Below are positions 2,124 to 14,072 of a DNA stretch of 32,164 nucleotides, piece by piece. Origin of the DNA: an uncultured Gemmiger sp. (GTDB lineage Bacteria > Bacillota > Clostridia > Oscillospirales > Ruminococcaceae). The translations under genes were made by a program, and so were the position numbers. Within the stretch, counting starts at the first letter, position 1. Each line of letters starts with the position of its first letter. The stretch covers positions 1-32,164 of the forward strand of contig CANRBN010000005.1 of the NCBI GenBank assembly GCA_947628865.1. The letters are read 5' to 3'. The notes under the pieces are model-generated. The model had not been told where the DNA came from. It saw only the letters and a list, made by a program, of their open reading frames with translations, and did no database searches.

Positions 2124-2152
2124 TTGCCGGGAGCGCGGTTTTGTGGTATTCT
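2124..2152 (+). promoter_or_regulatory. Sigma-A promoter for a structured RNA / glmS leader
   Basis: TTGCCG - 17 nt - TATTCT. Confidence 0.65.
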
Positions 2153-2158
2153 TTTCTC

Positions 2159-2295
2159 TGCGCGGCTCCTCTGCGGGCAACGGCGGCCTGGCCGCCTGGT
2201 GTAAGAGACCGGAAAGGGAGCATGAGCGCGGCAGACGGCCGTTGCCCTTGACGGTCGTCTGTTTTTGCCCGCAGCGCCGTGTGCCGCGAAGCGGC
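2159..2295 (+). ncRNA. Candidate multi-branched structured RNA or glmS leader attenuator (family unknown)
   Basis: CGCGGC(2161-2166)/GCCGCG(2283-2288); CTGCGGGCAA(2171-2180)/TTGCCCGCAG(2265-2274); inner hairpins 2182-2196 and 2232-2261; alternative 10-bp pairing 2175-2184/2238-2247. Confidence 0.55.
2232..2266 (+). terminator. Intrinsic terminator upstream of glmS
   Basis: CAGACGGCCGT / ACGGTCGTCTG stem followed by TTTTT. Confidence 0.7.
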
Positions 2296-2384
2296 GGCCC
2301 GGGGCTTTCCGATTTTGCATTTTTGCGTTTTTCGGCATACACTATAGCCAAAACGCTCCACAACACATTCGGAGGTGACGCACC

Positions 2385-13999: not shown

Positions 14000-14072
14000 G
14001 CTGGTGTAGCTCAACTGGCAGAGCAGCTGATTTGTAATCAGCAGGTTGCGGGTTCGATTCCTGTCACCAGCT
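14000..14072 (+). tRNA. tRNA-Thr, anticodon TGT
   Basis: Acceptor GCTGGTG/CACCAGC; anticodon arm GCTGA TTTGTAA TCAGC; T-arm GGTTCGATTC; CCA not encoded. Confidence 0.96.

Follow-up and report, generated by a model that had tools for sequence, protein, structure and literature searches.

A genus-restricted structured RNA family predicted upstream of glmS in Gemmiger

Introduction

The gene glmS is a classical feedback-controlled gene and is among the best known of the genes that are controlled by RNA. The glmS ribozyme follows the promoter as part of the mRNA itself and needs no terminator. In the DNA analysed here (called the window: 32,164 nt from an uncultured Gemmiger sp., contig CANRBN010000005.1, forward strand), reading of the sequence had instead predicted a multibranched RNA upstream of glmS, flanked by a promoter and a terminator, containing mutually exclusive 10-bp stems and matching no named class. 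This raises the question of whether such an RNA is conserved, and if so, whether it is a leader of glmS or an RNA in its own right. In the literature searched, no paper connected Gemmiger to riboswitches or Ruminococcaceae to the glmS ribozyme.

Results

Distribution of the element

In 26 of 35 Gemmiger genomes, glmS is immediately preceded by an RNA element of about 105 nt (2158–2266 of the window). The predicted arrangement, in which a structured RNA has a promoter and a terminator to itself, is conserved in homologues. Seven further genomes have glmS without the element, one (G029) has kept the terminator with a degenerate core, and the search for glmS in the last (G028) found none; the tally combines a covariance-model search, the glmS loci and direct reading of the loci. 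In all homologous loci retrieved, glmS is directly downstream of the RNA, and the GlmS proteins encoded there are 79–84% identical. Across species, 26 columns of the homologue alignment are invariant. The window copy is among the most divergent, with a model score of 65 bits compared to up to 113.

Matches in a blastn search of 61 genomes were restricted to Gemmiger and were concentrated on query positions 48–117, corresponding to 2197–2266 of the window. A model search of about 390 genomes of the order gave no credible copy, the few weak matches being bare terminators, and a gapped pattern matched at chance level only in 398 genomes of the family outside Gemmiger. The element is also absent from the nearest outgroup glmS loci. 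The weak model matches in G012, G019, G025 and other genera were rejected, because they consist of terminators from which the core is absent; the core is therefore the part that distinguishes the element. These comparisons indicate a real, undescribed and genus-restricted family of structured RNA adjoining glmS, with a putative regulatory function.

Three exact matches to the core, in L080 (labelled 'Faecalibacterium'), L076 and L088, were counted as chance. None has glmS nearby, the match in L088 sits in apparent coding sequence, and a model search of the L080 and L076 genomes gave nothing significant. A mini-ORF within the element (ATG...TGCCCTTGA) was rejected, its frame and start not being kept in L008, L010, L018, L021, L023 and L024.

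In a tree of GlmS, some of whose deep forks are weakly supported, the window species and L023 are sister to the remaining Gemmiger. Absence of the element is scattered over separate clades and implies at least three changes, with L094 and L095 nested among carriers. The simplest history would be presence in the ancestor of the genus followed by several later losses. The window GlmS is 53% identical to L157, the glmS product of the 'Faecalibacterium'-labelled genome that holds L080, but 65–67% identical to L103, L104 and L146, which come from other genera in the family, a contrast suggestive of two GlmS lineages.

Structure of the element

The features of the window are collected in Table 1. 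The RNA, its core and its terminator form the conserved part, and their boundaries and fold differ from those originally predicted. In homologues, promoter 1 is followed by the 5' strand of P1, a segment of variable sequence, the 5' strand of P2 and a near-invariant GGUGUAAGA. Next come the 3' strand of P2, in which an A is bulged, then GGAAA and further purines (usually GGGAG), and lastly the 3' strand of P1, which the terminator adjoins directly. The purine core GGUGUAAGA…GGAAAGGGAG is invariant to near-invariant, and GGTGTAA and GGAAA are nearly invariant in 25 sequences. The insert of the window (2164–2197) is not alignable with homologues, where the equivalent stretch holds the 5' strand of P2. 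In L022 the core carries a tandem AAGA duplication within otherwise invariant sequence (GGTGTAAGAAAGAAACT).

Table 1. Features of the glmS upstream region in the window.
Feature	Position	Strand	Remarks
Promoter 1 of the RNA, TTGCCG-17-TATTCT	2124..2152	+	TGG before the -10 gives an extended -10; best match in the region
P1, 5' strand, CTGCGC	2158..2163	+	At the expected transcription start; pairs with 2226-2231
Variable insert, longer than in relatives	2164..2197	+	Contains the GGCGGCCTGGCCGCC hairpin and the 10-nt arm of the original prediction
Invariant core, GGTGTAAGAGACC-GGAAAGGGAG	2198..2220	+	AAGG 2214-2217 is the 5' side of a putative pseudoknot
P1, 3' strand, GCGCGG	2226..2231	+	Covariation
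Terminator hairpin, CAGACGGCCGT-TGCCCTTG-ACGGTCGTCTG, with T5	2232..2266	+	Putative pseudoknot: 3' side at CCTT 2246-2249
Possible weak promoter 2, TTGCAT-17-TACACT, before glmS	2315..2343	+	Position homologous to TAGACA-17-TATACT of relatives
glmS, glutamine-fructose-6-phosphate aminotransferase, 613 aa	2385..4226	+	Named by earlier reading of the sequence

P1 begins about 3–8 nt after promoter 1 in 25 sequences and closes the domain, with compensatory changes in relatives (GUACGC/GCGUGC, UGCGCA/UGCGCA, GUGCGC/GCGCGC and UGCAC/GUGCA). P2 likewise shows compensatory changes (GGUU/AACC, AGCC/GGCU, CGUU/AACG and UGUU/AACA). The terminator stem, helix 6 of the alignment, covaries strongly, with 99% of cells paired and two-sided changes in 7 pairs.

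Overall, in a model-fitted alignment of 26 sequences, 89.9% of cells are paired, 18 of 29 pairs have two-sided changes (8.0 in shuffles, 2–8 in slid controls) and the covariation score is 0.249 (0.147 in shuffles, 0.03–0.12 for slid structures), figures that lean toward these stems because the model already contained them. Partner-swap tests on unaligned segments agree with the covariation count, swaps doing as well in 37/5000 cases for P1, 19/5000 for P2 and 0/5000 for the terminator. Besides the terminator, unconstrained RNAalifold recovered P1 together with a 3-bp extension on its inner side (CUC/GAG), and it preferred a UGGU/ACCG hairpin over P2. Covariation in homologues, proposed as a check in the original prediction, was thus found for P1, hairpin P2 and the terminator, and supports all three stems. 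Conservation and covariation together point to a conserved, aptamer-like structured domain upstream of glmS.

The loop of the terminator is invariant, reading (U/A/G)GCCCUUG with GCCCTTG common to all, and a T-run follows the stem. AAGG in the core is complementary to CCUU in this loop in 93% of cells, that is, in nearly all sequences, and this conservation suggests a putative core–loop pseudoknot. We infer it in this way because the AAGG and CCUU bases hardly vary, so that covariation cannot test them. In L094, where the RNA is lost, a matching terminator stem survives with a UAUA loop in place of GCCCUUGA, as expected if the loop is maintained by its pairing partner; L102 retains the loop despite having lost the core.

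Stems peculiar to the window species

The sequence elements originally described are all present in the window at the positions given for them. They comprise the promoter hexamers (TTGCCG at 2124–2129 and TATTCT at 2147–2152, 17 bp apart), an outer stem of CTGCGGGCAA (2171–2180) with TTGCCCGCAG (2265–2274), closing CGCGGC at 2161 and GCCGCG at 2283, and an antiterminator-like pair of GGGCAACGGC (2175–2184) with GCCGTTGCCC (2238–2247). A perfect 10-bp helix within 2150–2290 is uncommon by chance, occurring in 19 of 1000 dinucleotide shuffles (about 2%). The multibranched fold is seen in the minimum-free-energy structure, but its energy is ordinary (z = -1.22 for 2150–2320, with 23 of 200 shuffles as stable).

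Relatives do not share the sequence that holds the outer stem and the GGCGG-CCTGG-CCGCC hairpin. The proposed switch between mutually exclusive 10-bp stems belongs to the window species only, its antiterminator pair being found in 1 of 25 homologues. When homologues were searched for a conserved helix against the 5' half of the terminator, only a 5-bp AAGGG/CCCUU recurred, the others being weak and unrelated; an antiterminator-like helix of 10 bp is seen in the window species and one of 8 bp in L023. Since the 10-bp stems are peculiar to the window species, the antiterminator switch is not conserved in the family. Attenuator control is possible in the window species itself, which has this private helix and no clear promoter 2.

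Promoters and neighbouring genes

Promoter 1 of the window is matched in score by 0.3% of shuffles. It occurs at the same place in 25/25 homologues as TTG(nnn)-17-TATnnT, with a spacer of exactly 17 bp. Between the terminator and glmS, 19 of 25 carriers have a strong promoter 2 (TAGACA-17-TATACT), which is also retained in L093, L094 and L095, all three without the RNA. The candidate in the window is the best match in this gap, yet does not rise above chance (p ~0.24). The six carriers with no promoter 2 above chance (the window, L010, L011, L016, L017 and L023) include the earliest branches, and glmS may there need read-through.

Upstream of the RNA the neighbour is of three kinds: a sortase-like gene with a TLSTC motif, pheT, or an ORF on the opposite strand. 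Adjacency to glmS and orientation are constant throughout. Most relatives (L003, L012, L019 and others) have the sortase-like gene, ending ...LLTLSTCEYSS.NGRYVVVARR, between pheT and the RNA; in the window species this gene is missing and pheT is the direct neighbour. A strong intrinsic terminator after pheT (1848–1895, AAAAAAGCTCGTTC...GAACGAGCTTTTTT) would insulate glmS from pheT read-through.

A near-palindrome (AAGAATCTT / AAGATTCTT) recurs upstream of promoter 1 in L006, L017, L020, L022, L097 and L100, and downstream of promoter 2 in L003, L008 and L012, and is possibly a regulator site. Elsewhere in the window, a tRNA gene at 14000–14072 is the sole Rfam match over its gathering score.

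Discussion

Discrete RNA or cis-acting leader

The original prediction left a choice between a leader attenuator and a discrete small RNA, and these are still the two leading readings. The one that we favour over a classical riboswitch, at about even confidence, is a discrete, self-terminated small RNA specific to Gemmiger and linked to glmS. Transcription would start about 7 nt after the -10 of promoter 1, directly at P1, which would enclose a compact domain formed of hairpin P2 and the invariant purine core. The terminator loop, (U)GCCCUUG, would probably pair with AAGG of the core, bringing the terminator into the fold of the RNA, and polymerase would halt there by default to give a discrete RNA. 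Such an RNA would most likely be regulatory and tied to GlmS supply, with glmS itself served in most species by the separate promoter 2.

This reading draws on the RNA having its own promoter and terminator in the carriers, on the lack of a conserved antiterminator, and on promoter 2, which persists even in three genomes that have no RNA. Against it stand the six carriers that have no promoter 2 above chance, the survival of the L102 loop, and the fact that its place and orientation relative to glmS stay the same whichever of the three upstream neighbours is present, which a cis-acting leader would explain at least equally well.

In such a leader, a serious contender to which we give somewhat short of even weight, the domain would respond either to a protein or to a ligand, such as GlcN6P or UDP-GlcNAc, and so determine read-through of the terminator into glmS, promoter 2 providing a basal supply in some lineages. 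Besides the fixed position, this agrees with glmS being a classical feedback-controlled gene, with the absence from Gemmiger of the ribozyme by which many relatives control it, with the basal species among those lacking a clear promoter 2, and with the antiterminator-like helices of the window species and L023. However, the family has no conserved antiterminator, and the strong promoter 2 that 19 of 25 carriers possess would bypass the terminator; the RNA of these carriers is nevertheless retained without change.

A more specific proposal, which we regard as rather unlikely, is a new class of metabolite-sensing RNA that controls glmS in the ribozyme-less Gemmiger and is read out by the pseudoknot onto its own terminator loop, not by an antiterminator. 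It would be an unusual design for a terminator loop to be kept invariant through apparent pseudoknot pairing with the core.

Comparison with known RNAs

It is highly improbable that the element is a derived or degenerate SRP RNA (RF00169) or 6S RNA (RF00013), or a highly diverged glmS ribozyme. It is, like these, a small structured RNA, of similar length and multistem shape, and its purine-rich GGAA motif recalls SRP RNA, but bona fide SRP and 6S RNAs were found elsewhere, over the cut-off, in 5/5 Gemmiger genomes (that of the window and four relatives). An Rfam scan of the window and five relatives gave nothing credible, even at permissive E-values, which agrees with the original assignment to no named class, and the RF00234 covariance model has no match in the window or in the loci of relatives. 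To the extent that sequence and covariance models can decide, this reading is refuted. Equally improbable, and refuted by conservation, is an ordinary intergenic promoter with a G+C-rich terminator, chance folds and no specific RNA: the originally predicted fold is indeed no more stable than shuffles, but the invariant columns, the covariation of three stems and the coreless nature of the weak matches in other genera argue against it.

The closest comparison by position is the glmS ribozyme-riboswitch (RF00234), likewise a structured RNA that immediately precedes glmS in Clostridia. The Gemmiger RNA differs in its length of about 105 nt, which includes an integral terminator, and in having no similarity to the covariance model. 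As had been supposed, the ribozyme is missing here: genome scans found RF00234 in 27 of 120 genomes of relatives and in 0 Gemmiger, under stricter filters by which weak matches may be lost. The idea that the element directly replaces the ribozyme is unsupported, since L103 and L104, the two of the nearest outgroup glmS loci that were read directly, are also without the ribozyme.

Transcription-terminating riboswitches and leader attenuators resemble the element in having a compact conserved domain followed by an intrinsic terminator before a biosynthetic gene. The Gemmiger RNA differs from them in having no conserved antiterminator, in the bypass promoter of most species, and in being restricted to one genus and a single gene. 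The enterobacterial GlmY/GlmZ are small RNAs governing GlmS supply, of which the Gemmiger RNA may be a functional parallel, although they belong to another phylum and the Rfam scan shows no relation in sequence or structure. Pairing of the RNA with its own glmS start region is marginally better than with those of other species (212/5000 partner swaps were as good). A different conserved RNA at glmS, in a common gut genus that has no ribozyme, would represent a second natural solution, or a Gram-positive counterpart to GlmY/GlmZ.
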